From positions 115,797,794 to 115,861,793 of the forward strand of contig NC_055991.1 of NCBI RefSeq assembly GCF_018446385.1: DNA of 64,000 nucleotides. Direction: 5' to 3'. The translations under genes were made by a program, and so were the position numbers. Source of the stretch: Zingiber officinale (taxonomy: Eukaryota > Streptophyta > Magnoliopsida > Zingiberales > Zingiberaceae). Under the pieces are notes generated by a model that was not told the origin of the DNA, did not search any database, and worked only from the letters and a program-made list of their open reading frames with translations. Shown here one piece after another: positions 700 to 55,036 of this stretch (position 1 is the stretch's first letter; each line of letters begins with the position of its first letter).

Positions 700-3600
700 T
701 TCTCAATGAGCTTGCAAGTAAGAAGATGTTAGTTCATCGTCTTGAGACAGTTGGGCGCTCCCAGTCTGTCAAAGATGTGCTGCATTCTTTTCTGGTTAAC
801 ACCTAATCTCTGTTACTCTCCTATGTCATTTGCTTTGCGAGGTGGTTATCTTTTAATATGTTCCTCTTTCTTCCACTTGACATTAACACAGCTTGTCATA
901 AATCAGATAATCTGATAATTCAGTTTAACTCGTAATCACTTCCTTTTTTTAGAGATATGAATGCCCTTTTGCCTGCTCAAAAATGATGTTTTTGAAGCAG
1001 AAGTGGCTAGTGAGGGCCCCAATTTTTAAGTCTTTCTTACGTCTGTTTTATTCCCACAATAATTCTCTCTTTCTTTAAAAAAAAATCTTTGATTCTGTTT
1101 GCCAGTCAAATATTTCCTAGGATATTTGTTGTTCCATGGACAGGATTTTCATAGATCTCTGGCAAGCATATTGCCTTACACGCCTAAGATTATTTAGTTA
1201 CTATCATCTTTCCTTTGAACATCAAATCTCCCATTGTAATCCATTGGTTTAGACTTCATCTGTTGAATCTGTTAGTAATCTTCTTTCTCTGTCTCTCTCT
1301 CTCTTTTCAACCAGCAGCAACCTTCCAGAAATACAAAAGAATTTAAGGGGAGATCTAAGGAGCGTAGAAGTTTGTATAAACCTGATAAGGTAATGTTATC
1401 AATTCAATTTCTTATGTTACATTATCCATGAGAAGATGTTACCCTAACCTAATCTTGCAGAATTGTTTACCTTTCACTGCTGCATTTTTCCTTTGATTTA
1501 TATCTTCTATTATCGGCACTGCTAAATTGACACACAATTTTATGTAATTTTTTCCATGCATTATATTATGATTCCTACCTTAATTATAAAAATTGCCGAA
1601 AGGATGTTTTTGCCAGCACATAATTCTCACGTAGAATTGGTTATTCATCTTTTTAAAATTCACATGTCAAAGAGCTGGAAATTATTCTATCAAATGATAT
1701 TGAGCATTTTTTCTAAAATCACTTGTAAAAACAAATTTGGATTCATTTTTATTATCATCCTTTGCCTTTCAATTTTTATTTGGAAAATGCATAAATCTTG
1801 ATTTGCGTACTTCGATTCCATTATTATTTTTTCTAGTTTAATAATTTTACTTAATCCTAGAATATTCAGCATTTTTTTTTGCCTCGAATAATATATTCAT
1901 TCTTGTTGCACTTTCTGTGCCTGCAGAAACATGATCAATTGCGGGCCAAGGCTATAAAAGAGCATGAGGTAGATTATTACTCTTTCATGTCATTGAATTG
2001 TTATTGCAATTTCTCCGGTGGATGAAACATGCACATCTAAATTTTTGTGTTAGATGTCTTCTAATGTAGCATTTATTTTACGTATCTTGGACTTTGGTTT
2101 TTTCATTTTACACATTTAGATTCAGTCTGTTGGAAGTATGCAACATAAATAATTTTATGTAGATGCACCAGTTATACACATGACAAGATCAATAATGTGT
2201 TTGTGATAACCAAGATTTTTTCACTGTTATAATGAATAAATGTAAACACAGTTTTACTCTTATATAATCTTCACATTTTCTTATCATATGTCTAATTTTT
2301 TTATTCGTTTTGATATATAGGACCCACTTGAATATTACGAGATCATTGGAATGATTTTGACTATTAGTTGTTTGTTTGCGCATTTATATTGGTTTTATCA
2401 TGAGATGCTTCATTATCAATTTGTTGCTAAAATTATACAAGATTGAATCTGGATGATTTTATTCCCAAGATAATGTAACTAAGTCCTATTAAATATTTGA
2501 ATCTTATAGGATCTTGCTAGAAGTGCTCGATTTGAACAAATATGGAAGAAAAGGGGAAGCATAGATGCAGAAGAATGCTCTTTGTATGAAAAATGTCATT
2601 TGTATGATGTTGTTCGAGTTGATGCCGAGGATGAAACTCACCAAAGGGTGCCAAAGCCCAAGTAAGTTTAATATTCAGTGTTTCTATTGTTTCTTTAGTG
2701 TATCTTTCTAGTTTATATAAAAGATTCTTGAATGCTGCAGAGTTGCTCCTGAGGTTGGTGGTGCAATTTACCAAAGGGTGCCAAAGCCCAAGTAAGTTTA
2801 ATATTCAGTGTTTCTATTGCTTCTTTAGTGTATCTTTCTAGTTTATATAAAAGATTCTTGAATGCTGCAGAGTTGCTCCTGAGGTTGGTGGTGCAATTTA
2901 CCAAAGGGTGCCAAAGCCCAAGTAAGTTTAATATTCAGTGTTTCTATTGCTTCTTTAGTGTATCTTTCTAGTTTATATAAAAGATTCTTGAATGCTGCAG
3001 AGTTGCTCCTGAGGTTGGTGGTGCAATTTTTGATAAGTATTTACCACTTTTAAGGGAATTCCTTCCACAAGCAGCTGAAGAGATTGAACATGACAGGGCA
3101 ACTACAGAAGGTTCCATCTTCTCCAACATCTTTAATCTTCCAATGACAACTAATGTTATTTTTTATGCTTGGAAATAAGAAATCCAATTTACATACTATG
3201 ATTAACTTTATATGTAGTTTAAGATCTTCCATGAGATTCTTTATGATTTTCTCACTGCTAAATTTTCCCTTTTATTTATTTTGAACAGATAACTTTGTTT
3301 ACGACATATATACTATCGGCAGTGGTGTGGACATAGACACAGATAGTATTGATGAGCATCCATTGTATGAAATTAGACATCTGATTTATCTAAACTTACA
3401 ATTGGAATTTTATTTTGATATTCATTATGTTTATGTTTGATTGCTATAGAATCCAAGTTTATGTGGAGGATGACTATTATGATGGCTCGTCACAATCTGA
3501 TTATGAAAGTGATGATTCAAATGGTATGATTGTATATTTTCTTTCTTTTTAATCAGACTTATATTATTGTTGGCTAATATTAATACCTGTTTATTTTCAG

Positions 3601-3719
3601 CTGAAAACTATCCATGGAATGATTATTGTGATGAAGAGTCTGACTTTGAAGATTCTGACTCGATTTATGATCAAAGTGAAGAGGAAGATCGAGAGGACTG
3701 GAGATGGGGATATCGTTAA
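700..3719 (+). CDS. RDM4: Iwr1-family protein, RDM4/DMS4-like (3' part, ten exons)
   Basis: Exons read as 700-794, 1315-1389, 1927-1968, 2510-2661, 2741-2791, 2871-2921, 3001-3110, 3289-3364, 3450-3523 and 3601-3719; all join in frame with GT..AG introns. Recognisable segments are MLVHRLETVGRSQS, ARFEQIWKKRG, YEKCHLYDVVRVD, a PLLREFLPQAAEEIE stretch, NFVYDIYTIG, and an acidic tail with DSNAENYPWNDY, the hallmark of the Iwr1 family. In plants this family is represented by RDM4/DMS4, which links RNA polymerases II, IV and V to nuclear assembly, RNA-directed DNA methylation and stress responses. The protein starts outside the window. Oddities: exons 2741-2791 and 2871-2921 are identical 17-codon exons made by a tandem duplication, and the last exon is partly duplicated downstream. 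Family call is firm; whether the two extra exons are kept in the mRNA is unknown. Confidence 0.85.
2641..3029 (+). repeat. 130-bp tandem triplication spanning an exon-intron-exon junction
   Basis: Units start at 2641, 2771 and 2901. Each holds the end of an exon (QRVPKPK), a 79-bp intron and the start of the next exon (VAPEVGGAI). The copies are almost identical: the first reads TATTGTTTC where the others read TATTGCTTC. Each added unit creates a new 51-bp exon flanked by the same donor (AA|GTAAGT) and acceptor (CTGCAG|A), so the frame is preserved. Confidence 0.95.
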
Positions 3720-5155
3720 ATTTGTCTATTGTATTTGTGTTAAGCTTAAACAATCACTTTAAAAGCTGAAGCTGAAAAGGAGAATGAAAATCCTGTCATT
3801 GATTTAGAAGATTTCTTATTCAAATTATGAACGACTGGAGTAAAGGAAGATGGAGAGTACCGGAGATGGGAATATCTCAATTCGTTTAGTGTGCATGTAT
3901 TAAGTTGAGGCAATCACTTTCAGTGATTGTCTCATTTAGATGTATATTTTGTGTTGGTGGATTTTTTTTTTTATTTTAAATAGATGTTCAAAGTTGGTCA
4001 TTTATAATTTGTTTGGTGGTTAATGTAATTGGATAATGTCCTCATGTTAATATTAGTTTCTGTGCAAATTACCTGTCAAATCCAAAAAATTAATTTTTTA
4101 TGCTAAATTTACATAAATTTCACAATTTAAAAGTCGATAAGTTAATACGCCGCTATGTGTGCATGTGTAGATTACAACAGTTTTTCTAATAATATAAGCA
4201 TTTCTGAAGTCAAAATTTAAATTTTCTTAGGATAATGTGCACACTTTTGAAGCCGAAACTTTCTATGGATTACAAATCAATGTAAAATACAATCGATGAT
4301 CGACTAGATCCTCTTACTTCTCGTTGCTCAAGGAGTAGTCGGTATTTGGTGTCAAAATAAATATGACAAAAGGCAACAATGTTAGATCCATTGTGATGAA
4401 GAGTCTGACTTTGAAGATTCTGACTCGATTTATGATCAAAGTGAAGAGGAAGATCGAGAGGACTGGAGATGGGGATATCGTTAAATTTGTCTATTGTATT
4501 TGTGTTAAGCTTAAACAATCACTTTAAAAGCTGAAGCTGAAAAGGAGAATGAAAATCCTGTCATTGATTTAGAAGATTTCTTATTCAAATTATGAACGAC
4601 TGGAGTAAAGGAAGATGGAGAGTACCGGAGATGGGAATATCTCAATTCGTTTAGTGTGCATGTATTAAGTTGAGGCAATCACTTTCAGTGATTGTCTCAT
4701 TTAGATGTATATTTTGTGTTGGTGGATTTTTTTTTTTATTTTAAATAGATGTTCAAAGTTGGTCATTTATAATTTGTTTGGTGGTTAATGTAATTGGATA
4801 ATGTCCTCATGTTAATATTAGTTTATGTGCAAATTACCTGTCAAATCCAAAAAATTAATTTTTTATGCTAAATTTACATAAATTTCACAATTTAAAAGTC
4901 GATAAGTTAATACGCCGCTATGTGTGCATGTGTAGATTACAACAGTTTTTCTAATAATATAAGCATTTCTGAAGTCAAAATTTAAATTTTCTTAGGATAA
5001 TGTGCACACTTTTGAAGCCGAAACTTTCTATGGATTACAAATCAATGTAAAATACAATCGATGATCGACTAGATCCTCTTACTTCTCGTTGCTCAAGGAG
5101 TAGTCGGTATTTGGTGTCAAAATAAATATGACAAAAGGCAACAATGTTAGATCCA
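3626..5155 (+). repeat. 765-bp tandem duplication of terminal exon and 3' flank
   Basis: The segment 3626-4390 is repeated directly at 4391-5155. It starts inside the last RDM4-like exon (coding for CDEESDFEDSD onward, with the stop codon), and includes the 3' UTR and about 0.5 kb of flank. I noticed only a one-base difference (TTTCTGTGC versus TTTATGTGC near 4054 and 4819), so the event is recent or an assembly duplication. The second copy has no acceptor of its own and is probably not translated. Confidence 0.95.
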
Positions 5156-9300: not shown

Positions 9301-12300
9301 ATTTTGAATCCTTTTTTCACTGTCATTTTATCTCTTGCAGAAAAAGAAGGGCATTCTTGACATTAGTGAGATTCAAAATCCAAACCTGGTAAAGCCTAAG
9401 AATTTGAAAGCTAGAGCAGCTGATGTAAGTGAGAACTGAGAAACTTCTCTTTTTATTTTTCTCTTGTAAATTGTAAAATCATTTACTGTTGATGACATAT
9501 GCAAACTTTTTCATGTTTGCTCATCTCTATCTTTAAAAATTCATTGTGGCCTATTAATTATATTTCTCTGTGCAAATTTTGTCTTTTTAGATGACCATTT
9601 AGTATACTAGCCTTCATACACATAGCTTGTCCACTGTAGGATTTTTATATTTCGTAGTTTATGAAGTGCTATATCGTCATGTTTTCTTGGCTCTTGTCAA
9701 TCAGTTTTGTAACATTTCATTATTTCTCTTGAAAATTCAATGCAGGTGGAGAGCACCCCTGAACTCTCTCGACGTGAAAGGTATGTTAAGTATTCCTTTT
9801 TGTTTCTTTTCAAAGCTTTTTCTGAATTTTCTCCGCACTAGTTCATTTTAGCTTCTATTTTTTTTTATTTCTTATTGCTTCATCTATCTAATTTGTCATC
9901 CATGTGTTATTTATAATTAACTAATGTAATGCAAATTGTATCATATCAATTTGTAGCATCGTATCTGAACTAATTAAATAAATGAGGATACAAACTTTCA
10001 ATATCTTGTAATTACTGGAAAAGTAAGAGCGGTATGTCGTTGATCAGTCACTTACTGCACTGGTTGATTAGCTTGAATGAAATGTAAAGTGGGCAGATTT
10101 ATGATGGATGCTGACTGTTGATGTGGTTTGGTAAATGAAAAGAGAAAACAGTGAATTTTGTACTTCAAATACTGATTAGCCCTTGTCTAGGTGTCTTATG
10201 TACTTTTCCAAGTTGTCAAGTACACAACAAACTTCATAGAAAGACATGAGTTTTTATGATGCTTTTGTTTTAGTTGATCTGGGTTGACTAACAGAAGAGT
10301 GTAGGTATGGACATTTTAGCCTGATCTGTTCATTTGGACCACTATCCATTCTGCATCATTCACTTCTCACTTCATCTCCATTGTTGTTTATCCATTTTAA
10401 CCTTGTGGCTGTCATGAACTTTTACTTCGTATCTCTACTGAAATCTTTAGGCAATAACTAGTGGAGGAAACTTCTATTTGTAATCTCCTATATATTGTTA
10501 TGTTGGTTCAGCTTGCTGTGGTTTTCCAGTCTATAAGACATATGAGTTCCTGTCTTGCTGTATAGTATAATGATATGTGCATCGAACTTTTTAGGTTCAC
10601 ATTGATGCTTTAACAGTGACATTAAATACGAGTAATCTTTTTCATTTTAATCTAGTTAATGATAATTTCTGCATGCCCTCTGAAAATTCAATAACTTAGC
10701 ACTCTTCCAATTTTTTAATACAATCATAATCTAGGTTACTATTTTATTTCTATTATTTCATAATGTTAAACCTCAAAGGTCGAAAATTTTTTATTTTTCC
10801 ATAGTTCTGATGCTACTTTTATCATCAGCTATTAGGAGCTATTTATTATGCTTATTTCCTTGTTTGTTAATAACTCAATATATTACCATCATCAATATTG
10901 TCGTGATCTCTTTTTCATAGGGAAGAGATAGAGAAACAAAAAGCTCATGAGCGATACATGAGGTTGCAAGAACAAGGGAAAACTGAACAAGCTCGGAAAG
11001 ATTTGGGTAAAACCAGACAACCATCTTCCTTTTTATGTCTCTATCTCATGTTTGTTGAAGTGATTCTTTTTATAAGCTTCATGTTTTAGCAGTTGACTTT
11101 TGAAAGCCACCTAGGTTCCTCACTTTTTTTACAACAACCATTTAATAAAATGGGACAAACTAGTAAAGTATGTATGATATCTTGAGTTTCTATCGAATCA
11201 TACAATGTTGTTGGTGGTACTCATGATTGGCATGTTGTTTATTGAACTTACAATCTGTGTGGCTCTGATACATCAAGCATTTAAATATTTGGTCTCTGTT
11301 AGTAGTAAAATGCAACATCCACTGTCACAGCTCATTCCTGAAATTTGGTTTGACTTGAAGCTCACAAGGAAAATCTGTCTTTTGTTTGCTTTTGGCTAAT
11401 ACTCTTTTCATGTCACTTCTGATATCTTCAGTGTCCTTGAACTTAGACATGACTATATATTCGAGGGCAACATAGGATTTTGTCACTGGAGAAAATGCTG
11501 TGCCATCTGATGGCAATGATAGTGGTTTGGTACTATAAGGATCTGTGCAAAAAAAAAAAAAAGTGTGTTGTTTGAATCTTCTCTAAAAGCATCATTCTCT
11601 CTTTAGAACATCAAACTAAGTTGACACATTGCACTGCATACATGCAATTCCTCCCTTGGTCATAATTACAAAAGTCGTCTCAATTAATTTATGATGTTTC
11701 ACAGAACGTCTTGCATTAATACGACAACAAAGAGCTGAAGCTTCAAAGAAAAGAGAGGAGGAAAAAGCTGGTATGTAATTTCATATGTGAATATCCTTTA
11801 ACTAAATCTTCTGTCTATATGATTGCTGAAGTTAGATACTCTACATGCAAAATTATAGTGTATCTGGAAAATCCATAATCTTCAAATCATCAATTGGTTT
11901 GGTTCGAACCATCTATCCAATTCAACTCAGATATTACCTTTAAGCCATATTTTGTAGAGAGTAAATGCTGTGGGAATGGGCGTGGAGTGCAACTAAGTAG
12001 AATGGTTGATGTATTCCTTTGTTTGGTTGCATAATGGTATGGAATGGTATGGAAAGTGGTACTTGCCATTCTTATGCTTGGCGTGCTCTACTGCATTGAT
12101 GAGCAACTAATTGAGCTAACATCGCCCCTCTTTTTTTTCTATCTTGTATAGTTCAATTCACCCAACCAACTTGACCTGCCTGGTGTTTTTGGCTCATCTA
12201 ACTGTCCGATCTGTCTGATTTTTTTTTTATCCATCTAGCTCACTTGGTCCATCAGGTTCATCAAGTGAGTATGCTCCATCCGACTCCTTCAGTCAGTATA

Positions 12301-21341: not shown

Positions 21342-23222
21342 ATGGCCTCCTCCAACAGGCACTGGCCCAGCATGTTCAAGTCCAAACCCTGCAGCAACCA
21401 CCACCACCACCAGTGGCAGCAGCATGACAGTGCCTCCCCTAATTGCCACCCCAAGCCCGCCCCTTACTCCTCAGGTCCTACTTACTTCATTCTTCCATAT
21501 TTAAAGGGTTATTTCGGGGTTATCGTTTGGGGTTTAGGGTTATTCCGGGTTTGTAGCTAGGGTTATTCCGGGTTTATCGCTATACCCTAAACGCTCTAAC
21601 GCCGAGACTTTGAATTTGAGTAAATGCGGTCGTTGTTGATGTCGTGGTTTTGTAGGGTTGGAGGAGAGGAGCCCGGAGCCGAAGCCGCGGTGGAACCCTA
21701 GGCCGGAGCAGATCCGGATCCTGGAGGCGATCTTCAACTCCGGGCTGGTGAACCCGCCGCGGGAGGAGATCCGCAAGATCCGAGCCCGGTTGCAGGAGTA
21801 CGGCCAGGTCGGCGACGCCAACGTCTTCTACTGGTTCCAGAACCGCAAGTCCCGCAGCAAGAGCAAGCTCCGCGGCAGCGCCGCCGCCGGCCGCAGTAAC
21901 CCCCAGCCTGCTCTTCCCTCCACTACCAACGCCCCCTCCTCCACCACCGTCGCAGCGATAACGACCTCCTCCTCCTCCTCCTCCTCCTCGCCGGAGAAAT
22001 CCAGCCCGGGGTACGGAAAAGCCTTACAAGTCATGCAATTAGCTCCGCCGCCGCCGCCGCCGCCGCCACCTCCTCCTCCACTTCCGACCACGGCCGCTTC
22101 ATTGATGAATACCCAAACTTATCTGCCACTCGACCTCAGCGGCATAGGAGATCACTTCCTCAACCTTCAGTACTTCACCGGCTTCCACGCCGCCACCGCC
22201 GACATCAGCTCCACCGCCCTGTGGGGTGAGCTCTTAGGGCAAACCCCAATCAAGAGTACTGCTGTTCAATTGCACCAACTCTATGGAACTGGACCTTCTT
22301 TTACCACTGCTGCTGCCGCCGCCGCCACCACCACCACCACGGCCACAACCACAACCCCTATCACTGAGATACAAGGTAAGTGAGATCGATTCTCAAACAA
22401 CAATTTCTGCATTTTAAAACTGTTTTTTCCTTCATTGAAAATATTAATGTGCATGAACACCATGACACACCCTGTGTTTTCACTTCAATCTTTCTAGGGT
22501 TTTTAGCCACAAGTACCTACAAAATGGGTAGGTGTAGGCAAGTCCCACAACACAGCACAACCTTTCTTTAGTTGCAGAGATTAGGAAGGTGATTGCACGT
22601 GCCAAACCTGAAGAAGGGGAGGAAATTAATGGCAGGGGCAGGAGGTTTCGAGTGTTGGGATTTGTCAAAGTTTGATTAACACGACGAGCATGAAAGGCGT
22701 GATGACATGAGAGGTGTGATGGATCAGGAGGGGAGTTGTTTGGGTCTTGTCATGGAGATTCTCGAGGGGGTTTAGAATTTACAACCCTCGAAAAGATGGA
22801 GGTGAAGAAGAATAAGAGGAAGAAAATATTGGACGTGTGCATGGCATTAATTATATTAATTCACAAAAAATAAATTATAAAATTTTTAAGGTCATTTCAA
22901 TGATTTTGTGCAAAATATTGATGTTATAGGACTAATAGGAGGAGGAAGATCGACTGTGTTCATCAATGAGGTTGCATTTGAGATAGTGCCCGGGTCGCGG
23001 CTGAATGTGAAGGAGGCCTTCGGCGGTGAGGCTTTGCTTCTCGATCACTCCGGCCGCCCGGTGGTCACCAATGAGTTGGGCATCACCGTTCATCCTCTTC
23101 AACACGGAGCTTCTTACTATTTGGTTAAATTATACTTTACGAATTGATTAATTCTTCATTGATGCAAATTATTTCAATTAATTAATTGGAGTTAATGTTC
23201 TTGTATTTCTATGCAGGCTTGA
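21342..23222 (+). CDS. WOX9: WUSCHEL-related homeobox transcription factor, WOX9 (WOX8/9) type
   Basis: Exons 21342-21474, 21656-22375, 22930-23123 and a two-codon exon 23217-23222, giving 350 aa. The start [17 protein letters not shown] is the signature N terminus of the WOX8/9 clade. The homeodomain spans about residues 52-117: [19 protein letters not shown], the extended loop [13 protein letters not shown], and recognition helix [16 protein letters not shown]. Downstream lie poly-Ser, poly-Pro (about 175-186) and Ala/Thr runs, then the conserved C-terminal block [20 protein letters not shown] and [15 protein letters not shown]. No canonical WUS box (TLPLFP) is seen; LPLDL follows the poly-Pro run. 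The family acts in the nucleus in embryo, meristem and inflorescence growth (STIMPY; rice DWT1). If the last intron is not removed the protein ends in VKLYFTN at 23147 instead (356 aa). The gene looks intact. Confidence 0.94.
21505..21592 (+). promoter_or_regulatory. Cluster of telo-box-like motifs in WOX intron 1
   Basis: Within the 181-bp first intron there are repeated AGGGTTA, GGGTTT and TTTAGGGTT words and a terminal ACCCTAAAC. They resemble interstitial telomere motifs (telo boxes, AAACCCTA), which in plants bind TRB-type factors and can recruit Polycomb. Role here is inferred. Confidence 0.4.
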
Positions 23223-40196: not shown

Positions 40197-40439
40197 AGTC
40201 ATGGATGTATATTGGCCGTCCGGCCGACATTATTTTGCTGTAATCGTCGCTCGGTTAGTTTTGATGAATGAATCTCTGTCTCTAGTCGCTTGTCTAATCA
40301 CCGTGCGTATTTGAACTGCGTGACTAGTGAGCCCTAAGTTTTGTTGAGCTTTTGTGTTGCCAAGGCTGGACCCTCTAGATGTCGTTCGACAATCTATAAG
40401 TCGGGTTTTCAATTGTCGATCCACGAACTCCGGGTCGGG
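40197..40439 (+). other. aORF 3' flank
   Basis: About 240 bp between the aORF stop and the tandem array; nothing recognised. It probably contains the polyadenylation region of the aORF. Confidence 0.4.
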
Positions 40440-41075
40440 GGGTTTATAGTCGTCGGTCTGACTCTAGAGTTTAACGTCGTCGCTCGACGGTCTTCCAAGC
40501 GGGATATTCATGGTCGCCGCTTCCACCCTAGAGTTTAACGTCGCCGCTCGACGGTTTTCAGGCCGGGGGGGGGGGTTTATAGTCGCCGGTCCGACTCTAG
40601 AGTTTAACGTCGCCGCTCGACGGTCTTCAGGCCGGGGGGGTTTATAGTCGCCGGTCTGACTCTAGAGTTTAACGTCGTCGCTCGACGGTCTTCAGGCCAG
40701 GGGGTTTATACTCGCCGGTCCGACTCTAGAGTTTAACGTCGCCGCTCGACGGACTTCCGAGCGGGATATTTATGGTCGCCGATTCGACCCTAGAGTTTAA
40801 CGTCGCCGCTCGACGGTCTTCAGGCCGGGGGGTTTATAGTCGCCGGTCCGACTCTAGAGTTTAACGTCGCCGCTCGACGGTCTTCCGAGCGAGATATTTA
40901 TGGTCGTCGTTTCGACCTTAGAGTTTAAGGTCGCCGCTCGACGGTCTTCAGGCCGGGGGGTTTATAGTCACCGGTTCGACTCTAAAGTTTAACGTCGCCG
41001 CTCGATAGTCTTCAGGCCGGAGGGTTCATAGTAGCCGGTCCGACTCTAGAGCTTAACGTCGCGGCTCGACGGTTT
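40440..41075 (+). repeat. Tandem array (about 64-bp unit) of Tat-1
   Basis: About ten units with the core GACTCTAGAGTTTAACGTCG followed by CCGCTCGACGGTCTTC. Two unit types occur: one ends in CAGGCCGGGGGGTTTATAGT and the other in CCGAGCGGGATATTTATGGT. A reverse-complement relative sits at the equivalent place in Tat-2 (55037-55684). Confidence 0.93.
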
Positions 41076-42434: not shown

Positions 42435-43426
42435 GTAGGCCCCCGATCGGAGTTTCTCGACGACTTTGAAGGGTCCCGCCCAGGGAGCCTCCAACTTGCT
42501 CACATCATCGACCGGCTTCACCTTCTTCCATACTAGATCACCGACCTGGAATGCTCTGGGGATTACTCGCCTGTTGTAATTTTGCTTCATTCTCTGCCGA
42601 TACGCCATTAGCCGAACAGCTGCTTTAGCTCACGTTTCATCTACCAAATCCAGATCTAGCTGCCTCCGCTCGGTGTTGTCCGCGTTGTATTGTTGCACCC
42701 GATCGGACTCGATTCCGATCTCTACTGGTACAACCGCCTCTCCTCCGTAGATCAAGTGGAACGACGTAACCCCCGTTCCTTCCTTAGGAGTCGTGCGGAG
42801 TGCCCATAGGACGCCAGGGAGTTTGTCTACCCAGCTGCCCCCAAGGTGGTCGAGCCGAACCCTTAGAATTCGAAGAATTTCCTGGTTGGCTACTTCATCT
42901 TGTGCGTTACTCTGCAGGTATGACACAGAGGTGAAGTGTTGCTCGATGTCGTACCCATCGCACCATTCTTGGAACTCATGTCCGACGAACTGTCGCCCAT
43001 TGTCGGACACGAGCCGTCGCGGAATGCCAACCGACATATGAGATGCTGCCAGATGAATTTTTTGACCATATGCTCGGTGATCTTGACCAGTGGCTCGGTC
43101 TCAACCCATTTGGAGAAGTAGTCCACCGCTACTAGTAGAAACTTCCTCTGCCCGGTTGTCATAGGTAAGGGTCCCACGATGTCCATGCCCCATTGGTCGA
43201 ACGGACAGGATACCGTGGATGCCTTCATCTCTTCCGTCGGTCGATGGGAGAAGCTGTGGTATTTCTGGCAGGAAAGACAAGTGGCCACTGTCCGAGCAGC
43301 GTCTTCCTGTAGAGTTGGCCAGAAGTATCCGGCTAACAGGATCTTCCTAGCTAATGATCGACCGCCTGGGTGTCCCCCGCAAGATATTTGATGCACTTCC
43401 TTCAATATATATTCCGCGTCCTCCAA
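42435..43426 (-). pseudogene. Tat-1 integrase, frameshifted
   Basis: Minus strand from 43426: zinc-binding region (EVHQISCGGHPGG, CLSCQKYHSF), first catalytic Asp in WGMDIVGPLP, then YFSKWVETEPL. The frame shifts near 43060-43040, so the DNGRQFVGHEF segment with the second Asp lies in another frame (43037-42630). The third part, with TNREI-like and WALRTTPKEGTG blocks, continues to LVWKKVKPVDD. At 42435 the reading frame runs into the solo LTR. Confidence 0.88.
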
Positions 43427-44160
43427 GCTGACACACTTTAAAAGTGGCCGAGAAAAAGATTCTTGTAAAGCTGGTCCCCGATGAGGGTGAACCGACCGGC
43501 TCTCTTTCTCAGAAGCTGGGCTTCATCCCGGTCATACGAAGTGACACTCGACTGCAGAAGCTCTATTATAGTCGTCCTCTAGTCGCTGGGGAACGTTAGG
43601 CCTTCCATCCTGTCAATATGCGCTACCAAGCATACCTGCTCGATTGCTTGTTGGGCGCCGATCGGTGCTATGGAACTAGCCAACTTTGCCAACTCATCTG
43701 CTACCTGGTTGTCTGCTCGGGGAATTTTTTGCACGATCACCTCGGCGAAGCTAGTGTTGAGCCTTTCGAAGGTCTTCACGTAGAGCTTGAGCCTTGCATT
43801 GTTGACTTCGAAAACTCTTGAGAGTTGCTGAGCGGCGAGCTGAGAGTCAGAGAAGATAATCACTCGGCTCGCCCCCACATGCCGGGCAGCCTGCAGTCCC
43901 GCTATAAGGGCTTCATATTCCGCCTCATTATTAGTAGCTCGATAATCCAACCGAACGGAAAGATGCATCCGCTCTTCCTGTGGTGAGATTAACAGAATGC
44001 CTACTCCACTCCCGAGTCGAGTTGATGACCCATCCGCATAGACCTTCCAGGAAGCCTCAGGCTCGGGGCTCTGTACTTCTGTGACGAAGTCCGCCAGGGA
44101 TTGCGCTTTAATTGCTGTGCGGGGTTGGTATTGAATATCAAATTCACTGAGCTTGGTAGT
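43427..44160 (-). pseudogene. Tat-1 second RNase H (aRNH-type)
   Basis: Minus-strand 43968-43579 encodes YRATNNEAEYEALIAGLQAA, IIFSDSQLAAQQL and DNQVADELAKLASS, the Glu/Asp signature of an additional RNase H domain. Such a second RNase H following the ordinary one is typical of the Tat lineage of plant gypsy elements. Its start (44160-43969) is broken by frame changes. Confidence 0.85.
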
Positions 44161-45380
44161 TCATTTAATCAGCCGTCCGGACGCCTCTGGGTTGAGGAGG
44201 ACTCTCCCTAGAGGGTTGTTCGTCATTACAATGATTGTGTGCGCCAGAAAATAGGGTCGGAGTCTCTGAGTGGCGAGGACTAAAGCGAATGCAAGCTTTT
44301 CGAGACCAGTGTAGCGAGACTCAGCATCTTTTAGGATATGACTTAAGAAATACACAGGCTGCTCTTCGCCATTTTGCCTTACTAGCGTCGAGCCAACGGC
44401 CTGCTCGGTCGAGAATAGGTAGATACGGAGTGGTTCGCCGGCGGCTGGCTTAGTCAGTACAGGTAATGAATTCAGATACACCTTTAATTCTTCGAAAGCC
44501 CGATCACACTCTGTGTCCCATTGGAATTTGGCTGCTCGAGGCAAAATCTTGAAGAATGGCAAACTCCAGTCGGCTGTCTTAGAGATGAATCGTGACAAGG
44601 CTGTTATCCGTCCAGTGAGGCGTTGCACTTCCTTCATGCTTCAGGGCGACGGCATGTCCTGCAGCGCCCTTACTTTGCTAGGGTTCGCCTCGATGCCCCG
44701 TTCGGTAACAATGTAGCCCAGGAATCGCCCACCTTTCGCCCCGAACAGACACTTCTGGGGTTCAGCTTGACTCCGTACATTCTCAGAGTCCGGAAGGTTT
44801 CTTCTATATCTGCACACAGATCGACCGCTCGGAGTGATTTAATAAGTATGTCATCTACGTATACCTCCAAGTTTCGCCCGATCTGCTTTCGGAACACTCT
44901 GTTCATGAGCCGCTGATACGTGGCGCTCACGTTCTTCAGCCCAAACGACATTACCTTGTAGCAGTAGGTGCCGTCCGCCGTGATGAAACTCACTTTCTCC
45001 TGGTCTTCTCGGGCGAGCGGCACCTGGTGATAACCCTGATATGCATCCAGCATGCATATCAGCTCACATCCGGCGGTCGAGTCCACCATTTAGTCGATCC
45101 GGAGCAGAGGGTAGAAGTCCTTCAGGCACGCCCTATTGAGGTCCCGGAAATCGATGCAGACCCTCCACTTGTTACCCGACTTGGAAACTAGCACAACATT
45201 TGCCAACCAACTCGAGAATTGAACTTCCCGTATATGGTCGGCTTCTAGCAACTTTTCGACCTCCGCTCGGATGATGATGTTCTGCTCTGCGCTGAAGTCC
45301 CGCTTTCTCTGCTTCATTGGTCGAGCGTCCGGTCGGACATGGAGCTCATGTTGCGCTACGCTCGGCGAAATGCCCGGCAA
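44161..45380 (-). pseudogene. Tat-1 reverse transcriptase and RNase H, broken
   Basis: Minus strand: 45380-45090 holds RT N-terminal motifs (KWRVCIDFRDLNRA); a TAA at 45092-45090 splits it from 45089-44670, which has MLDAYQGYHQV, MSFGLKN and an intact YVDDILIKS active site. The frame is lost after GVKLNP near 44760 and recovers at 44637-44161 with RITALSRFISK and the RNase H block RYTGLEKLAFALV. Typical gypsy order. At least one stop and one frameshift make it inactive. Confidence 0.9.
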
Positions 45381-45521
45381 CTCGTGGGTTGACCATGCGA
45401 AGACGTCATGGTTGCATCGTAGGCACTCAACTAGCTCCTCCCTCTGGTCTCCCTCCAGGTCAGACGCTATGAATGTTGTGGCTTCTGGCCGGTCGGGCTG
45501 GATCTATACTTCCTCATTTTC

Positions 45522-46123
45522 CTAGTAAACTAAAGTTGGAGGCTTTTTAGTCACGGTATTTACCTCGAGGCGCGGTGTTTTCCGCGCCGACCTGGACTCG
45601 GCTCGGACCATTTCCACATAGCATCGTCGGGCGACCAGCTGGTCTCCTCGGACTTCGCCCACTTGGTCCTCCATGGGGAACTTGATCTTCTGGCAGAAAG
45701 TGGAGACAACCGCTTGGAATTTGTTGAGTGCGGGTCGCCCCAATATGACATTGTAAGCAGAGGGGGCATCGACCACTATGAAGTTAGTGGTTCTCGTTCT
45801 TCGCAGCGACTCCTCAACCAGTGATATAGCCAGCCTGGTCTGGCCGACCGACAAGACCTCGTTGCCAGTGAATCCATACAAGGGTGTTGTCATCGGGAGC
45901 AGCTCGACACGATCAATTTATAGTTGGTCGAATGCCTTTTTGAAGATAATGTTGACCGAGTTGCCTATATCAATAAAAATGTGGTGAATAGTATAATTTG
46001 CTATTACCGCTCAGATGATGAGTGCATCGTCGTGCGACACTTCAACTCCTTCCAGGTCCCTAGGCCCGAAGCTGATCTCGAGACCCCGTGCTCGCTCTTG
46101 GCTGCAGCCTACTGCATGAATCC
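45522..46123 (-). pseudogene. Tat-1 aspartic protease, active site degraded
   Basis: Minus-strand coding with SAYNVILGRPALNKF and IKFPMEDQVGEVRGDQ (45893-45522). Upstream, near 45985-45945, the catalytic box reads FIDIGNSVNII instead of FIDTGSSVNII. The loss of DTG(S) means no protease activity. A stop near 45920 and frame changes add to the damage. Confidence 0.85.
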
Positions 46124-47569
46124 TTAGCTGCCGAACGTGTGACTTTCTGGCCCTGTTGGAATCTCCTCCCGTAGGGCCCCCAGCGATGATGTTGATTTCA
46201 CCCCGAGCGGTATTGCTTCAATTTTCCTCCTCCCGAGCGGAGGGCCTCGTTCGCTCCTGTGAGGCTCGGGGTTTGGTCCTCGGCGGATGATGATGCTGCC
46301 GATCGACCGACTCCCTGGCCCCACGTCGTTTGGTGTCCTGGTGTCGGGGGCGCCGATCAGGTGAAGGGGATCAGCGGCGATAGCTCCTAGGCGCAAGGTG
46401 AGCGATCGGCGGAAGGCTCCGACAGTCACGGGTGTTGTGGGTGGCTGACTGGTGAAGTGAACAGAACATGGGAGTCCATACCTTTCCCTTCTGCTTAGGC
46501 CGATCAGCCGCCACATGCTGGATAGCTTGCGGTCTTGATTCTTGGTGTGGACGTACTCCTTCGGCTCGAGGTCCTCTTGGCGGTTGATGGCTGGTTGGTT
46601 GCCTCCGCTCGGCGGGCGCCAGCGGCTCGGCCGGTGTTTCTTTCTTCTTGTCGCCTGGGCTCCCTCCACATTGATGTATTCATTGACTTTGTGCAGCATA
46701 TGGTCGTAGCTGCGAGGCGACTTTCTGATGAGCGAGCGGAAGAAATCACCGACCACAAGCCCTTGTGTGAACACGTTCATCATGGTCTCCGAGGTGACTG
46801 TTGGGATATCCATGGCCACCTGGTTGAAGCGTTGGATGTAAGCTCGGAGCGTCTCCCTCGGGCCTTGTTTTATGGCGAACAAGCTGACGCTGGTCTTCTG
46901 GTAGCGCCTGCTGCTCGCGAAATGATGAAGGAAAACCGTGCGGAATTCTTTGAAGCTTGTGATCGATCCGTCCGGCAGCCTCCGGAACCACCGTTGCGCC
47001 GATCCCGAAAGGGTGGTGAGAAATACCCTACACTTTACACCATCTGTATATTGATGTAAAGTGGCCATGTTGTCGAACTTACCCAGATGGTCATCCGGGT
47101 CGGTGGTCCCGTTATATTCTTCGATTGTCGGGGGCGTGTAGTGCCTTGGCAGTGGATCCTGAAGAATGGCCTCAGAAAACTGTCGATTGATCCGCTCGGG
47201 GGATGACTCAGCCCGAGGCGCCTTCCCCTTCATAGCATCCCGTACGGGTGCTTCATCTGATGACCCTTGATTGGCCTGTGCCAGCTCGGATGGAGTCTGG
47301 AATAATGCCCGATGAAACGGAATAGGGGCTGGCCGCGCATTCCCTGGAGTGCTGGTCTAACCTTTATTCTGCGCCCATATGGAGTATTGCTCCGGCTGGT
47401 CCTCCCCCGTCGCTTGGCCACCTGACGCCGAAATTGTCTGTTGTGCTAACCGCTCGGCTAGCGCCTTCTGTTGTTGCTGCTCCACGATTTTTGCCGCTCT
47501 TGCCTCAATAAGGGCGTCGAGCTCCTCCTGAGAGAGCGTCACGGTGTGTGGTCGTCCAGCTCCTTCCAT
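46124..47569 (-). pseudogene. Tat-1 gag
   Basis: Starts at ATG 47569 (MEGAGRPHTVTLSQEELDAL). A TAG at 47359-47357 replaces a Gln codon present in Tat-2. From 47233 the frame is open to 46124 and includes the gypsy gag core: IEEYNGTTDPDDHL, KCRVFLTTLSGSAQRWF, LHHFASSRRYQKT and LRAYIQRFNQVA. After about 46700 the original frame shifts; the zinc-binding segment FCSLHQSATHNTRDC (CX2HX4HX4C type) is in another frame near 46460. Structural protein of the particle in intact relatives. Confidence 0.88.
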
Positions 47570-47595
47570 CTTCTCTGCACGGATTCAGGTGTGTT

Positions 47596-47611
47596 CCCAC
47601 AGACGGCGCCA
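47596..47611 (-). other. Primer-binding site of Tat-1
   Basis: TGGCGCCGTCTGTGGG on the minus strand, three bases inside the 5' LTR. The first nine bases match the tRNA-Asp-type PBS often used by plant gypsy elements; the rest diverges. Confidence 0.6.
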
Positions 47612-47614
47612 ATT

Positions 47615-48480
47615 TGATCTGTCCGAGCTGTGAGTTGATGAAAGCTGGGGACGTGGCGCTCTCTGTTGGCTCCGCGTAGACGCCGGGATGAGGTGAACCT
47701 CCGGCTGCAACAAAGTCGGGCTGGGAAGGGGTTCCCGGCGACGACCCTTCGACGCTCAAGTTAGGTGAGAAGAAATCTGAAGCAAAATAAGGAGAACTGT
47801 AGCTACAGTATCGTTGATTGCATACCTCCGTCGAAGTCTGGGCCGGGGAGGCGTGTGTACGCTTATCGACACGTGCACGCTTCCCCAAACATACCTCCCA
47901 ATAGATGTGTCAGAAAAGCATGTCTGACGCTATACCGCAACCGTCCGAGCATATCTCTGACATGACAATGGCAACTTCCACCGTACGATTATCTGTCTGG
48001 TCTGGTCGTCGACCATGTTGTCTATCGGCGGCACATATCCCGAGAAGGATATCTGTGGTCGTCGCCTTTGTACTCTTTCGCACCTTCTGTCTTTTATCGG
48101 GCCGAGCGGGAGAGACGCTCGGCCATACTGGTTGGACCGAGCGGGACCGTGCCTCGGCCATATTGGTCGGCCGGGGGGACGCAGGCGAGGCCGAGCGAGT
48201 GAGCCGCTCGGTCATATGCTCGGATGAATAACGCCTACATCGGCCTACAGCCTAGCTGAGCGGCCGCTTAGCCCAATCAGCTGTAGTATGTGAATTCCTG
48301 AGCATCAGAAACTCGACCCTTAGCCGAGTTATCTCCTTGCCGACCTGGCCTTCTTCTGCGGATGATCGGCAAGGTGGCCTCCCGCTCGGCTCACCTCCTT
48401 TTACGATGATCGTCTCGACCTTGACCTCCACGTGTCATTAACCTCTGTCCGTACGGGACCCCTCCTTTGCTACCGGATCA
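47615..48480 (-). repeat. 5' LTR of Tat-1
   Basis: 866 bp, clearly similar to 29350-30237. Around 47840 about 17 bases are missing, including the TATATA box seen in the 3' LTR near 29590, so this copy probably lost its core promoter. Confidence 0.93.
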
Positions 48481-48690
48481 GTGTCGATATGGAAAATCTT
48501 ATGATACTCAGACATATGCGATTTGATTTCTCCCACAACTAAAATTCAACCCTTTGCTATGTAATGTTAGCATTGGTTAGAGGTATGGGACGATCATTTC
48601 TTAATACATAGTCTAAGTCCATGTAGACTAAGACTACGATCACGTATTCTTTCCTTTCAGCAAAATTTAAACTAGTTAATGTTGGATGTT
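48481..48690 (-). pseudogene. copia gag N-terminal remnant (right side of the Tat-1 insertion)
   Basis: After the TSD GTGTC, the minus strand reads gag remnants (EIKSHMSEYHKIFHI, then KERIRDRSLSLHGLRLCI further upstream) that lead in frame toward the gag at 29349. This shows that Tat-1 inserted into the copia element. Confidence 0.7.
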
Positions 48691-48896
48691 ATTAATACTG
48701 ACAATTATTTATTGCATTAAAATTAGAGAAATTATAATATAAAATTATGTAAATAAAATAAAATTTTAAATAAATAAATATATATGTATATATATATATA
48801 TAGATACACACGCTTTTTATGAGATATCAAATACAATATTATATTTTACTTTGTAAACTAAAATATAATTTATTAGCGGTACTCTATGATATAATT
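48691..48896. other. AT-rich spacer between the two Tat elements
   Basis: About 200 bp of AT-rich sequence with a (TA)n tract at 48780-48800. No copia LTR recognised. It ends in the TSD TAATT (48892-48896) of Tat-2. Confidence 0.6.
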
Positions 48897-49670
48897 TGAT
48901 CCGGTGGAAAGGATCGGAGGCCCACATGGGAAGGGGTCAACGACACGGGAGAGTCAAAGTTCCGGCAGAGTGGGTCGGAAGTCACCTGGCCGACCGGCCG
49001 GAGTAGTTGCCGAGCCGACATGAAGACAGCTCGACCTCAGGTCGAGCTTCCGACGCTCACAAGCTCCCTTATAGAGGAGTCGCTTTGCCGAGTGGCCGAG
49101 CCGCTCGGCCGAACTGCAGAACAACTAGCTGGTGCCCTGTCCGAGTATGTGACCGAGCGGCCATCTCGCCCGGTCCGTGGTGAATATATACCCGAGCGCC
49201 TGGGAGTCCGAGCAACTAGCCTGTCCGGCCCAAGTAGCGACAAAAGGCTTGGAAGAGGACGAAAGGGGCAGCTTGTGATATCATTCTCGAGACACCTGCC
49301 GCCGACAAATAGAATGGTCGGCGATCGAGCCGTACTGAGGATCGTACGGGGGAAGTTTCCGCTACCATGGCAGAGATATGCTCGGGCAGTTGCGGTATGG
49401 TGTCAGTCACGCTTTTCTGACACAATCATTCTGAGGTATGCTTTGAGGAACGTGCATGTCTCGGGAAGCGTGCACGTGCCTCTCCGGGATTCTATATAAA
49501 GACCCCCATACTTCGACGGAGGTAGGATTTTTTCTCCCATCTACTCTAGCCACAATCGTTATTTTGTCTCTGCTTCATCTCGCTGTTGCCTGACTTGAGC
49601 GTCGGAGGGTCGTCATCTGTGGGAGCGCTACGCCCCCAGCTTTCATCGACTCAACGCACGGACATGATCA
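48897..49670 (+). repeat. 5' LTR of Tat-2
   Basis: 774 bp; TATA box CTATATAAAGACC near 49492. It lacks about 75 bp found in the 3' LTR (GTCGCCGGGAACCCC to GAAGGCAGTAGG region), so a deletion occurred after insertion. Confidence 0.93.
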
Positions 49671-49673
49671 AAT

Positions 49674-49689
49674 TGGCGTCATCCGTGGG
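49674..49689 (+). other. Primer-binding site of Tat-2 (mutated)
   Basis: TGGCGTCATCCGTGGG three bases after the LTR; corresponds to TGGCGCCGTCTGTGGG in Tat-1 with a few transitions. Confidence 0.6.
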
Positions 49690-49715
49690 AATGCACCTGA
49701 ATCCGAGCCGAGAAG

Positions 49716-51102
49716 ATGGAAGAAGCTGGACGCCAACTCATGGTAACACTCTCTCCCGAGGAGCTCGAAGCACTCATCTAAGCGCGAGCCGCAAAGATGG
49801 TCGAGCAACAGCAGAAGGCCCAAGCAGAGAGGATAGCTCAACAGGCCGCCTCGGTTTCTGGAGGCCGAGCGACCATGGAGGACCGACCGGAACAATATTC
49901 TACCTGGGCTCAAAACAAAGGGCAGACCGGCACACCAGGAGACTCGCCGGCCACCCCTATTCCATTCCATCGGGCACTGTTTCAGACTCCGTCGGAACTG
50001 GCCCTAGCCAACCAGGGATCGTCCGATGAAGCACCTGTGCGAGACTCCAAAAAGGGGAAAGCACCGCGTGCAGAGTCATCCCCCGAGCGGGTCAATCGCC
50101 AGTTCTCTGAGGCAATCTTACAAGACCCTCTTCCAATGCATTACGCTCCAATATCGATCGGGGAGTATAATGGCGCAACCGATCCGGACGACCTTCTCGG
50201 TAAGTTCGATAACACTGCTACTCTTCATCAATGCACCGACGGAGTCAAATGCAGAGTCTACCTCACTACATTCTCTGGTTCGGCTCAAGGCTGGTTCCGG
50301 AAGTTGCCGGACGGATCAATTAAGAGCTTCAGAGATTTCCGAACGGCATTCCTCCCTCACTTTGCCAGCAACCGATGCTATCAGAAGACTAGCGTGAGCC
50401 TCTTTTCCATGAAGCAAGGGCCGAAAGAAACTCTCCGAGCCTACATCCAGCGCTTCAACCAAGCAGCTATGGACATCCCCGCGGTCTCGTCTGAGATAAT
50501 GATGCATGCTTTTACACAAGGCTTAGTCGATGGGGACTTCTTTCGCTCGCTCATCAGGAAGCCGCCTCGCGATTACGACCACATGCTGAAAAAAAACAAG
50601 TGAGTACATTAACGTGGAGGAAGCACAAGCGGCCCGAAAGAAGGAAGCGTCGGGCGAGCCCCCAGCCCAAACTGAACGGAGAACACATATCAACCAACAA
50701 CCGCCGAAAGGACCACGTGCCGAGGGGATGAGGCCACCTCAAGATTTCAGGTCGTCCGCCGTTCAGCACATTGCGGCCGAGCGGCCTCGACAAAAAGGCA
50801 AGGTATGGACGCCCATATTTTGCAAAATCCATCAATCAGCCACCCATAACACTTGGGACTGCCGGAGTCTCCCCCCGGTCAGCCAACCTGAGCCGAGGAT
50901 CTATCGGCGCCGATCACCTTCACCTAACAGGCGAGCTCATCATCAGCATGCCAAGCGCCTAATAATTAGGCGTTCACCCGAGCGACACCACCATCACCAG
51001 CAACATCACCAGCCAAGGCCAACCCTCGAGTCTCCCATGAGCAAGCCAGACTGTCCGGTCTGGAGGAAGAAAATAGAAGTAATACCGCTCGGGGGGAAAT
51101 AA
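49716..51102 (+). pseudogene. Tat-2 gag
   Basis: Starts ATG 49716 (MEEAGRQLMVTLSPEELEAL). A TAA at 49779-49781 stops it after 21 codons, then the frame is open from 49782 to 50603. The gag core is EYNGATDPDDLLGKFDN, FSGSAQGWFRKLPDG and RAYIQRFNQAAMDIP. An A-run near 50588 causes a one-base shift; the next frame (50614-51102) has NVEEAQAARKKEAS and the zinc-binding FCKIHQSATHNTWDC, a CX2HX4HX4C variant. The breaks are few, so decay is more recent than in Tat-1. Confidence 0.9.
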
Positions 51103-51182
51103 ACATCATCGTTGGTGGGCCAACAAGTGGTGACTCCAATCGAGCCCGCAAGTCGTATGCCTGACGACTGGAAATACATGCT

Positions 51183-51905
51183 GTGGGATGCAACCAAGAG
51201 AAGGCGAGCGGGTCGGCGATCAGCTTTGGTCCTGGCGACCTCGAGGGAGTCGAAGTGCCTCACGATGACGCCCTCATCATCCGAGCGGTAATAGCAAACT
51301 ACACTATTCATCACATCTTTATTGACACAGGGAGTTCGGTCAACATAATCTTCAAGAAGGCGTTCGACCAGCTCCAAATCGACAGGGCGGAGCTACTACC
51401 GATGACCACGCCTTGCTCGGATTCACGGGTAACAAGGTTCAACCAGATGAAGTTGGCCATTTCGCTCGGGGAAGAACCACTCAGGAGAACGCGGACTGCT
51501 AACTTCATCATTGTGGACGTTCCCTCGGCATACAACGTCATTCTGGGCCGACCGGCTCTCAACGAGTTCCGGTCGGTCGTCTCAACTTTCCATCAGAAGA
51601 TCAAATTCCCCGTGGAAGACCAAGTGGGAGAAGTTAGAGGCGATCAGCTAGCAGCGCGGCGTTGCTATGTGGAGATGGTGCAGGCAGAGTCGAGGTCCGC
51701 TCGGAAGGCCCCCCGTATCGAGGTAAATGTTATAACCAAAAAGCCGCCTACTTTTGTTTATGAAGAAAAGGAGGAAGTACAAATTCACCTGGTTCGATCG
51801 GAGGCCACGACGTTCATAGCCTCCGACTTGGAGGCAAGCCAGAAGGAGGAGCTAACCAGATGTCTCCAACGAAACCACGATGTCTTCGCGTGGTCGATGC
51901 ACTAG
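51183..51905 (+). pseudogene. Tat-2 aspartic protease
   Basis: Open frame with the intact catalytic box FIDTGSSVNIIFKKAFDQL (about 51309-51365), SAYNVILGRPALNEF and the conserved EDQVGEVRGDQLAARRCY block. It ends at a TAG at 51903-51905 that lies before the RT region, where an intact pol would read through. The protease domain itself looks undamaged. Confidence 0.85.
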
Positions 51906-53240
51906 CTGTCAGGAATCTCGCCAAGCATCACGTAGCACGAGCTACACGTCCGGTCGGACGCTCGTCCCGTCAAGCAAAGGAAGCGGGATTATAGTGCCGA
52001 GCAGAACATCATCATACGGGCGGAAGTCAAGAAACTTCTAGAGGTCGGCCACATACACGAGGTACAGTTCCCAAGCTGGCTCACAAATGTGGTGCTAGTC
52101 TCTAAGCCCGGCAACAAATGGAGAGTCTGCATCGACTTCCGCGACCTGAACAAAGCGTGTCCGAAGGATTCTTACCCACTGCCCTGGATTGACCAAATGG
52201 TGGGCTCAACCGCCGGGTGCGAACTGATATGCATGCTGGATGCTTATCAGGGTTATCACTAAGTGCCGCTCGCCCGGGAAGATCAAGAGAAGGTCAGTTT
52301 CATCACAGCGGACGACACTTACTGCTACAACGTGATGCCGTTCGGACTGAAGAACGCAGGGGCTACGTACTAGCGACTCATGAACAAGGTGTTCCGGAAG
52401 CAGATCGGGAGAAACCTAGAGGTATATGTTAATGATATACTCATTAAATCATTCCGGGCGGCCAACCTTTGTGCAGATATAGAAGAAACTTTCTGGACAT
52501 TACGGGCGTACGGGGTCAAGCTGAACCCAAAAAAGTGTCTGTTCGGAGTAAAAAGTGGTAGTTTCCTAGGCTATATAGTCACCGAGCGAGGCATTGAGGC
52601 CAACCCTAGCAAGGTCAAAGCGCTACAGGATATGCCGCCGCCCAGAAACTTGAAGGAAGTCCAACGCCTTACGGGCCGCATAACAGCGCTATCCCAGTTC
52701 ATCTCCCGGACAACCGATCGGAGCATGCCCTTCTTCAGGATTCTACGTCGGGTGACCAAATTCCAATGGGATGAGGAATGTGACCGTGCATTCGAAGAAT
52801 TGAAGGCCTACCTAAACTCATTACCTGTATTAGCTAAGCCACCTGTCGGCGAGCCCCTCCGCATTTATCTGTCTTCAACCGAGCACGCGGTCGGTTCGGC
52901 GTTAGTCCGGCAGAACGGCGAAGAACAGCCAGTGTATTTTCTTAGCCACATTTTAAAGGATGTTGAGTCTCGCTACACTGGTCTTGAGAAGCTTGCCTTC
53001 GCACTTGTTTTAACCGCTCGAAGGCTCCGGCCATATTTCCTAGGGCATACAATCATTGTCATGACAAATAGCCCCTTAAGCCGAGTTCTACTAAACCCCG
53101 AGGCGTCCGGGCGGTTGATCAAATGGACTACGGAGCTTAGCGAGTTTGACATACAGTATCAGCCCCGGACAACAATCAAGACACAGTCGTTGGCAGACTT
53201 CATAACTGAGGTACAAAATCCCGAGCCCGAAGACACCTAA
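51906..53240 (+). pseudogene. Tat-2 reverse transcriptase and RNase H
   Basis: RT motifs WRVCIDFRDLNKACPKD, MLDAYQGYH and MPFGLKNAGATY, with stops at 51903, near 51934, near 52259 and at 52371-52373. The active-site box is YVNDILIKS (about 52424), with Asn replacing the first catalytic Asp. From 52380 to 53240 the frame is open: GVKLNPKKCLFGVKSGSFLG, RITALSQFISR, RNase H RYTGLEKLAFALV. Inactive because of the stops and the active-site change. Confidence 0.92.
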
Positions 53241-53708
53241 AAGGTGTATGTAGATGGATCGTCCACTCGGCAGGGAAGTGGAGTAGGTGTGCTGCTGGTT
53301 TCCCCCCACGGAGAACGAATACACCTGTCCGTATGACTGGACTATAAAGCAACCAACAATGAAGTGGAGTATGAGGCGCTTATAGCAGGTTTGCAGGCTG
53401 CTCGGCATGTAGGAGCTAGCAATGTTTTAATTCATTCAGACTCACAGTTGGCTGCTCAGCAACTTTCAGAAGCATTTGAAATAAGCAACGTCAGGCTCAA
53501 GCTTTATGCGGAAGCCTTCACCAAACTAAGGGCCGGTTTTCGAGAGGTGGTGATACAAAAGATCCCCCGCGCGACCAATCAAGCTGCAGATGAACTGGCT
53601 AAGCTAGCCAGTTCGATATCACCAATCGTCATTGAGCAGCCAGTCGAGCAAGTGTCCGTGCTCGCCCACATCGATCGGATGGAGGGACTCACATTTCCAA
53701 ATGACTAG
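53241..53708 (+). pseudogene. Tat-2 second RNase H (aRNH-type)
   Basis: Begins VYVDGSSTRQGSGVGVLL; a TGA near 53335 interrupts it before NEVEYEALIAGLQAARHVGA, LIHSDSQLAAQQL and NQAADELAKLASS. Acidic residues of the RNase H fold are present. It follows the ordinary RNase H and supports assignment to the Tat lineage. Confidence 0.85.
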
Positions 53709-54931
53709 CGAACGGCTATAACAGAGTTTCTGAGGTCAGGAGCAACGCCGTCCGATCGGTCGGAAGCACATCTGCTCAGAAGAAAACCTGGTCGGTTCGT
53801 CCTCATTGGTGACCAGCTCTACAAAAAAGAGTTATCCAAGCCTCTGCTTAAATGCATCGGCCCGGAGGATGTGGACTACATTTTGCAAAAAGTACACCAA
53901 GGCTCATGTGGCAGGCATCTGGGAGGTTGCTCGTTGGCAAGGAAGATTCTTTTGGCCGGCTATTTTTGGCAGACTTTACAGGAGGGCGCCGCCCGGACAG
54001 TCGTCACATGCTTATCTTGCCAACGGTACCACAGTTTCTCACATCGTCCCGCGGAAGAATTAAAAACTTCCACGGTGTCTTGCCCGTTCGATCAATGAGG
54101 CATGGACATTGTGGAACCATTTCCAATGGCGATCGGACAGCGAAAGTTTTTGCTAGTAGCAGTGGACTATTTTTCCAAGTGGATTGAAGCCGAGCCACTA
54201 GCTAAAATAATCGAGGAAATGGTCAAAAAATTTATATGGCAGCATATCATTTGTCGGTTCGGCATCCCGCGACGGCTCATCTCCGATAATGGGAGGCAGC
54301 TCTCGGGTCAGCAGCTCAAGGAATGGTGCGAGGGGTATGACATCCAGCAAGCCTTCACCTCCGTAGCATATCCCTAAAGTAACGGGCAAGCCGAAGTCAC
54401 CAATCGGGAGATCTTACGAGTTCTCCGGGCTCGGCTCAACCATGAAGGTGGCAGTTGGGTGGACGAGCTGCCCGGGGTATTATGGACGCTCCGAATGACG
54501 CCCAAGGAGGGAACAGGAGCGACCCCCTTTCACCTGGTGTACGGGGGAGAATCCATCGTCCCGGTAGAAGTAGAGGTAGAATCTGACCGGATTAAAATCT
54601 ACGACGAGAACAATGCCGAACAGAGGCATTTGGAGCTGGACTTGGTGGACGAGACGCGAGCTAAGGCCGCCGTTCGGTTGATGGCGTACCGGCAAAGGAT
54701 GAAGCAAAACTACAACAGCGGGTAATTCCCAGATCTTTTCAGGTCGGCGGCCTCGTTTAGAAGAAAGTCAAGCCGGTCGACGACGTTACCAATCTGGGAG
54801 CTCCTTGGGCTGGGTCGTTCAAGATTGTAGAAAAGCTCCGTTCGGGCGCTTATTACCTCGAGGATGGAGATGGACGGAAGCTAGAGCGATCATGGAGCAC
54901 AAATCTCCTCCAGCCGTACCGAGCTGGGTGA
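53709..54931 (+). pseudogene. Tat-2 integrase
   Basis: Zinc-binding part (VHQGSCGRHLGG, CLSCQRYHSF), catalytic part MDIVEPFPMAIGQRKF, FGIPRRLISDNGRQLSG and ELPGVLWTLRMTPKEGTGA, and the C terminus with YYLEDGDGRKLE and LLQPYRAG (stop TGA 54929-54931). TGA at 54096-54098 replaces Trp, TAA at 54375-54377 replaces a sense codon, and a TAA follows NYNSG near 54723. Otherwise full-length. Confidence 0.9.
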
Positions 54932-55036
54932 AAGGTGTGTCATTGTAACTCATAATGTTCAATCCTGCTGTATCTTTTGATCGCAGAAGTAAAATCAAAG
55001 GAAAACCAAGGAAACGAACAATTTATGCCTAACAAA

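Follow-up and report, generated by a model that had tools for sequence, protein, structure and literature searches.

A tandem triplication of a 130-bp unit could add two in-frame exons to a likely IWR1/RDM4-type gene of Zingiber officinale

We analyzed a stretch of 64,000 nucleotides of the Zingiber officinale genome (NCBI RefSeq assembly GCF_018446385.1, contig NC_055991.1, positions 115,797,794 to 115,861,793 of the forward strand), which is called the window here and whose numbering is used throughout. A plant-like gene on the + strand is already under way at the start of the window or begins shortly after it. The 5' end of this gene is taken to lie beyond the start of the window, and our exon model, which was built by hand from exons chosen to be open and in phase, contains no start codon. 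The first modelled exon E1 (700..794) is followed on the + strand by E2 (1318..1389), E3 (1927..1968) and E4 (2510..2661) and, behind a repeat array, by E5 (3001..3110), E6 (3289..3364), E7 (3450..3523) and E8 (3601..3719), the last of which includes the stop codon (ENYPWNDYCDEE...WGYR, stop). The acceptor of E2 is a CAGCAG (NAGNAG) site at 1312-1317, which also permits an exon start at 1315 and could add or drop one glutamine. The donors of E5 (AAG/GTTCCA, the slash marking the exon border) and E6 (ATT/GTATGA) are weak and agree with the consensus at 4 of 9 positions. With two predicted extra exons, X1 and X2, the model comprises ten exons, all of which read open and join in phase.

An Iwr1-like region begins in E6 (NFVYDIYTI...), continues in E7 and lies near the C-terminus of the modelled protein. 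The initial annotation had called the gene RDM4-like. The Pfam profile Iwr1 (PF08574) is in keeping with such a resemblance, being matched over its full length (positions 1-74 of 74, E 0.0044), but the score of 18.4 bits stays below the curated gathering cut-off of 22. From the sequence we consider it likely that the gene is of the IWR1/RDM4 type. Arabidopsis RDM4/DMS4 is described (PMC3141008) as similar to yeast Iwr1, as co-purifying with Pol IV and as having a role in RdDM; both proteins are Iwr1-like, with the match of the ginger gene lying under the Pfam cut-off. When both extra exons are included, Iwr1 scores 18.3 bits, at a position displaced by 34 residues. Because the match is shifted in this way, the insertion must lie outside the Iwr1-like region, and indeed the extra exons are situated upstream of it. 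A search of the protein against solved structures gave one match, to a glutathione S-transferase with E = 1, and Pfam returned a very weak Chlam_PMP match for the protein with two extra exons (E 0.32, 7 residues); we took both as chance.

The array between E4 and E5 was found by Tandem Repeats Finder at 2640-3029 with 3.0 copies, a period of 130, 99% matches and a score of 773. A second repeat search of the window confirmed the spacing of 130 and 130, and direct comparison also showed that the units are arranged head-to-tail inside one gene. The tandem triplication of a 130-bp unit that had been proposed is therefore borne out by all three approaches; of its proposed position, 2641..3029, the end is correct, while the array in fact begins one base earlier, at 2640. 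Each unit contains the whole intron together with exon sequence from both sides (22 nt + 79 nt + 29 nt). Unit 1 (2640..2769, +) consists of the last 22 nt of E4, the 79-nt intron and 29 nt that repeat the E5 start; unit 2 (2770..2899, +) has the same sequence as unit 3 (2900..3029, +), which ends inside E5, where unique sequence sets in after the first 29 nt of that exon. Of the 130 bases, a single one sets unit 1 apart from units 2 and 3, which are identical. The variable base is intronic, with T at 2690 in unit 1 and C at 2820 and 2950 in the other two. At the array edges the flanking bases mismatch on both sides, showing no exact overlap at the joint, and the 8 bases 5' of the array match the end of the unit at 5 of 8 positions, as counted from the self-alignment. 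A chance repeat was ruled out as the origin, given the score of 773 at 99% matches; the array is taken as far beyond chance, a judgement made from the score and without a shuffled control. We regard it as a real and tidy sequence feature of moderate interest. One scan of viral contigs gave 4 pattern matches, none of which was confirmed as a relative.

The three intron copies (2662..2740, 2792..2870 and 2922..3000, all on the + strand) each measure 79 nt, have 27-28% GC and end with TGCAG, each reading GTAAGT...CTGCAG. Reading on from the exon frame into any of them gives TAA at once. Between them lie the predicted extra exons X1 (2741..2791, +) and X2 (2871..2921, +), which would be spliced as identical chimeras of 51 nt, made of the E5 start (29 nt) and the E4 end (22 nt). 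Their 17 codons encode VAPEVGGAIYQRVPKPK, in which the downstream exon supplies VAPEVGGAI (nine residues) and the upstream exon QRVPKPK, with a tyrosine between them whose codon is created at the duplication joint. Once spliced, every junction in the array would have the sequence CCCAA/AGTTGC. X1 and X2 are flanked by junctions of one and the same phase, so that 0, 1 or 2 copies preserve the frame; the corresponding models are open to the stop and give 245, 262 and 279 residues. The anatomy would therefore allow the protein to grow stepwise or the exons to be skipped, as the initial annotation had proposed, with the frame predicted to stay intact. Length, phase and peptide are as the initial annotation had given them for frame-neutral 17-codon exons. 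Its further statement that the locus is a clear case of exon birth goes too far: the exons duplicate coding sequence that was already present, 33% of such duplications should be in frame, and selection is not discernible. Among 16,720 breakpoint pairs spanning the array intron, 5,574 (33%) give an in-frame outcome, 5,463 of these being open, and we therefore dismissed the in-frame outcome as a sign of function. The array copies are too alike to reveal retention by selection.

All three units carry a GT donor and an AG acceptor, as had been claimed. On the + strand of the window the string CCCAA/GTAAGT occurs solely at the donors 2662, 2792 and 2922, and CTGCAG/AGTTGCTCC solely at the exon starts 2741, 2871 and 3001. 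The array donor CAA/GTAAGT fits the donor consensus at 8 of 9 positions, compared with 4 to 6 for the remaining six modelled donors. In terms of U1 pairing, for which the energies are simple estimates, the array donor reaches -5.1 kcal/mol and the donors of E2 and E3 reach -6.6. An internal GAG/GTTGGT present in every unit (2754, 2884, 3014) gives -6.1 and hence pairs better with U1 than the presumed donor; if used, it would produce a 13-nt exon and a frame shift. The array acceptor contains 47% pyrimidines in the scanned stretch, the second lowest value among those compared (41-88%), and shows one loose branch-point match at -29. Overall, the splice sites of the array look usable without standing out in strength, and cryptic sites may also be used.

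Less than 1 kb from the array, at the 3' end of the same gene, lies a second tandem duplication of 765 bp. Copy 1 (3625..4389, +) takes in the end of E8 and the adjoining 3' flanking sequence, while copy 2 (4390..5154, +) lies beyond the stop codon and has no AG acceptor at its start. Judging from this layout, copy 2 should leave the protein unchanged. The copies differ by one mismatch (4060 C vs 4825 A), with a 1-bp overlap at the joint. In a self-comparison of the window, which took matches of at least 60 bp with copies at most 100 bp apart, the 130-bp and the 765-bp duplications alone exceeded 95% identity among 17 rows; the remaining 15 ranged from 77 to 93%. Two near-perfect duplications in one gene could point to a fragile spot or be an assembly warning. 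At 6.5e-9 substitutions per site and year, rough ages can be assigned. One difference in 130 bases corresponds to roughly 0.6 My (0.015-3.2), zero differences between units 2 and 3 to at most 2.2 My, and one difference in 765 bases to 0.1 My (0.003-0.56) for the longer duplication.

We consider it probable that the array is an internal tandem duplication, young and close to neutral, and that the splice sites it inherited function by intron definition, adding 34 residues to the protein. A 130-bp piece, comprising the short intron and the adjoining coding ends, would have been copied, probably by error-prone repair of adjacent breaks, and the third unit would have arisen either in the same event or later, when the copies underwent unequal exchange or slippage. 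Each copy would have inherited the parental splice signals, so that all three 79-nt introns would most likely be removed by intron definition. Since the three introns are equal in length, pairing is expected between neighbouring sites, with both extra exons retained in the mRNA; for exons to be skipped, introns of 209 or 339 nt would have to be removed in place of the 79-nt ones. The mRNA would consequently carry two extra identical 51-nt exons, and the protein would gain 2 x VAPEVGGAIYQRVPKPK before the Iwr1-like region, probably with little effect. In rice, according to PMC7971508, tandem duplications are the commonest insertion source, are enriched at 50-200 bp and are ascribed to the repair of adjacent nicks; perfect tandem duplications above 1 kb were observed there, and the tandem-duplication share drops above 125 bp to reach 5% by 200 bp. 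The array, with its near-perfect units of about 130 bp, and its longer neighbour resemble such rice duplications, but the array differs from them in having three units and in lying across an intron in a coding region. In favour of this young-duplication reading speak the 99-100% unit identity, the 8/9 donor, the open models, the rice precedent and the neighbouring 765-bp duplication. Against it stand the internal GAG/GTTGGT with its better estimated U1 pairing, the pyrimidine-poor acceptor with one loose branch-point match and the rice share falling above 125 bp; additionally, near-identity would fit an assembly error too, and the model is hand-made, with weak E5 and E6 donors and an Iwr1 match below the cut-off.

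A real array with extra exons that are left out of most mRNAs or enter them in varying number, such that 0, 1 or 2 copies give several coexisting protein lengths, appears unlikely to us. Alternative pairings of donors and acceptors, with introns of 209 or 339 nt, would keep the frame too, and 51 nt is a length by which microexons were defined in earlier works, microexons being reportedly spliced less efficiently than ordinary exons (PMC8831610). Intron definition should nevertheless favour the neighbouring pairs at 79-nt introns, and plant coding microexons are, in the same paper, mostly found in the major isoform, although these data concern exons of up to 15 nt (PMC8831610). It is very unlikely, in our opinion, that such variation extends to a regulatory role, in which an RNA-polymerase/silencing factor would possess an exon array that is young, varies in copy number and segregates in the population, with 17-residue units in varying number tuning the length and the positive charge before the Iwr1-like region.

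The near-identity of the copies bears on a different question, namely whether the true allele has only one or two units and the extras come from misassembly or merged haplotypes. Units 2 and 3 are identical, the single difference of unit 1 could be a heterozygous SNP, and the adjoining 765-bp duplication is nearly perfect as well, so that two such duplications fall in one gene. Yet in rice PMC7971508 reports genuine perfect tandem duplications of this and greater length, the array is short relative to long reads, and a copy-specific base is present in both duplications; we hold an artefact to be distinctly unlikely. Finally, the near-identical introns and the cryptic donors could make the allele a damaging one, with many premature-stop transcripts from a gene that is turning into a pseudogene. 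The immediate TAA in any intron copy read from the exon frame, the frame shift that would follow the 13-nt exon from GAG/GTTGGT and the additional duplication of the gene's 3' end would fit such decay. The ten modelled exons are, on the other hand, all open and in phase, though hand-picked for that, and we regard this outcome as highly improbable.

The same kind of event is already in print, and the array is a further case, no new process. For Arabidopsis TOUCH3, PMC4974935 describes two tandem internal duplications that took in an entire pre-existing intron and exon sequence to either side of it. As in the array, a whole intron and its flanking exon sequence were copied; the genes differ. The original report of the TOUCH3 internal duplications is said to be that of Knowles & McLysaght 2006, and Schiml 2016 and Vaughn & Bennetzen 2014 reportedly deal with short tandem duplications from plant DNA repair. 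In the Cryptococcus gene CNN00420, two introns were gained via the expansion of an intron-containing repeat, and the case is reported as an intron polymorphism (PMC2395259). There, too, the two gained introns are identical to others of the same gene and arose by repeat expansion, but the case is fungal and the gain was demonstrated by strain comparison, while the array is known from one sequence. In a potato RdRp gene, a new intron arose when a stretch across one boundary was duplicated in tandem, as RNA-seq and genomic reads support (PMC4974935). It resembles the array in being a recent tandem duplication at an intron-exon boundary with mostly inherited splice signals, and the host gene in having a second tandem duplication (83 bp in potato). 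In potato, however, the duplication took in a single boundary and a cryptic donor came into use, while the array, known from the sequence alone, contains copies of the whole intron. A Rogers-type gain, in which a new intron forms from exonic sequence through AGGT duplication (PMC4974935), was ruled out, because the array introns were duplicated from one that was already present. Titles and abstract openings among the matches listed for the RDM4/IWR1/DMS4 literature mention no such array. The matches for RDM4 combined with tandem duplication and intron concern soybean CLASSY genes and the Magnolia genome, with no such array in their titles or abstract openings.

If RNA confirms the predicted exons, the locus would show cleanly, and at an early stage, how tandem duplication of a sequence that contains a short intron can make a protein longer by entire exons with the frame unbroken. 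Moreover, because its three introns are virtually identical, it could be a natural test of how plant splice sites pair, by intron definition or with skipping.

Elsewhere in the window, an open frame at 21640-22383 has a homeodomain match (Pfam PF00046, E 1.2e-11) and resembles a WOX-type protein. Remains of LTR retrotransposons are present on both strands at 42630-53710, with gag and RNase H above the cut-off and RT and integrase below. Tandem Repeats Finder detected two arrays of a 64-bp tandem unit, at 40436-41073 and 55035-55680, whose consensus sequences look, by eye, like mutual reverse complements. There is also a short open frame at 10907-11089, the start of which may resemble the PP28/PDAP1 family.
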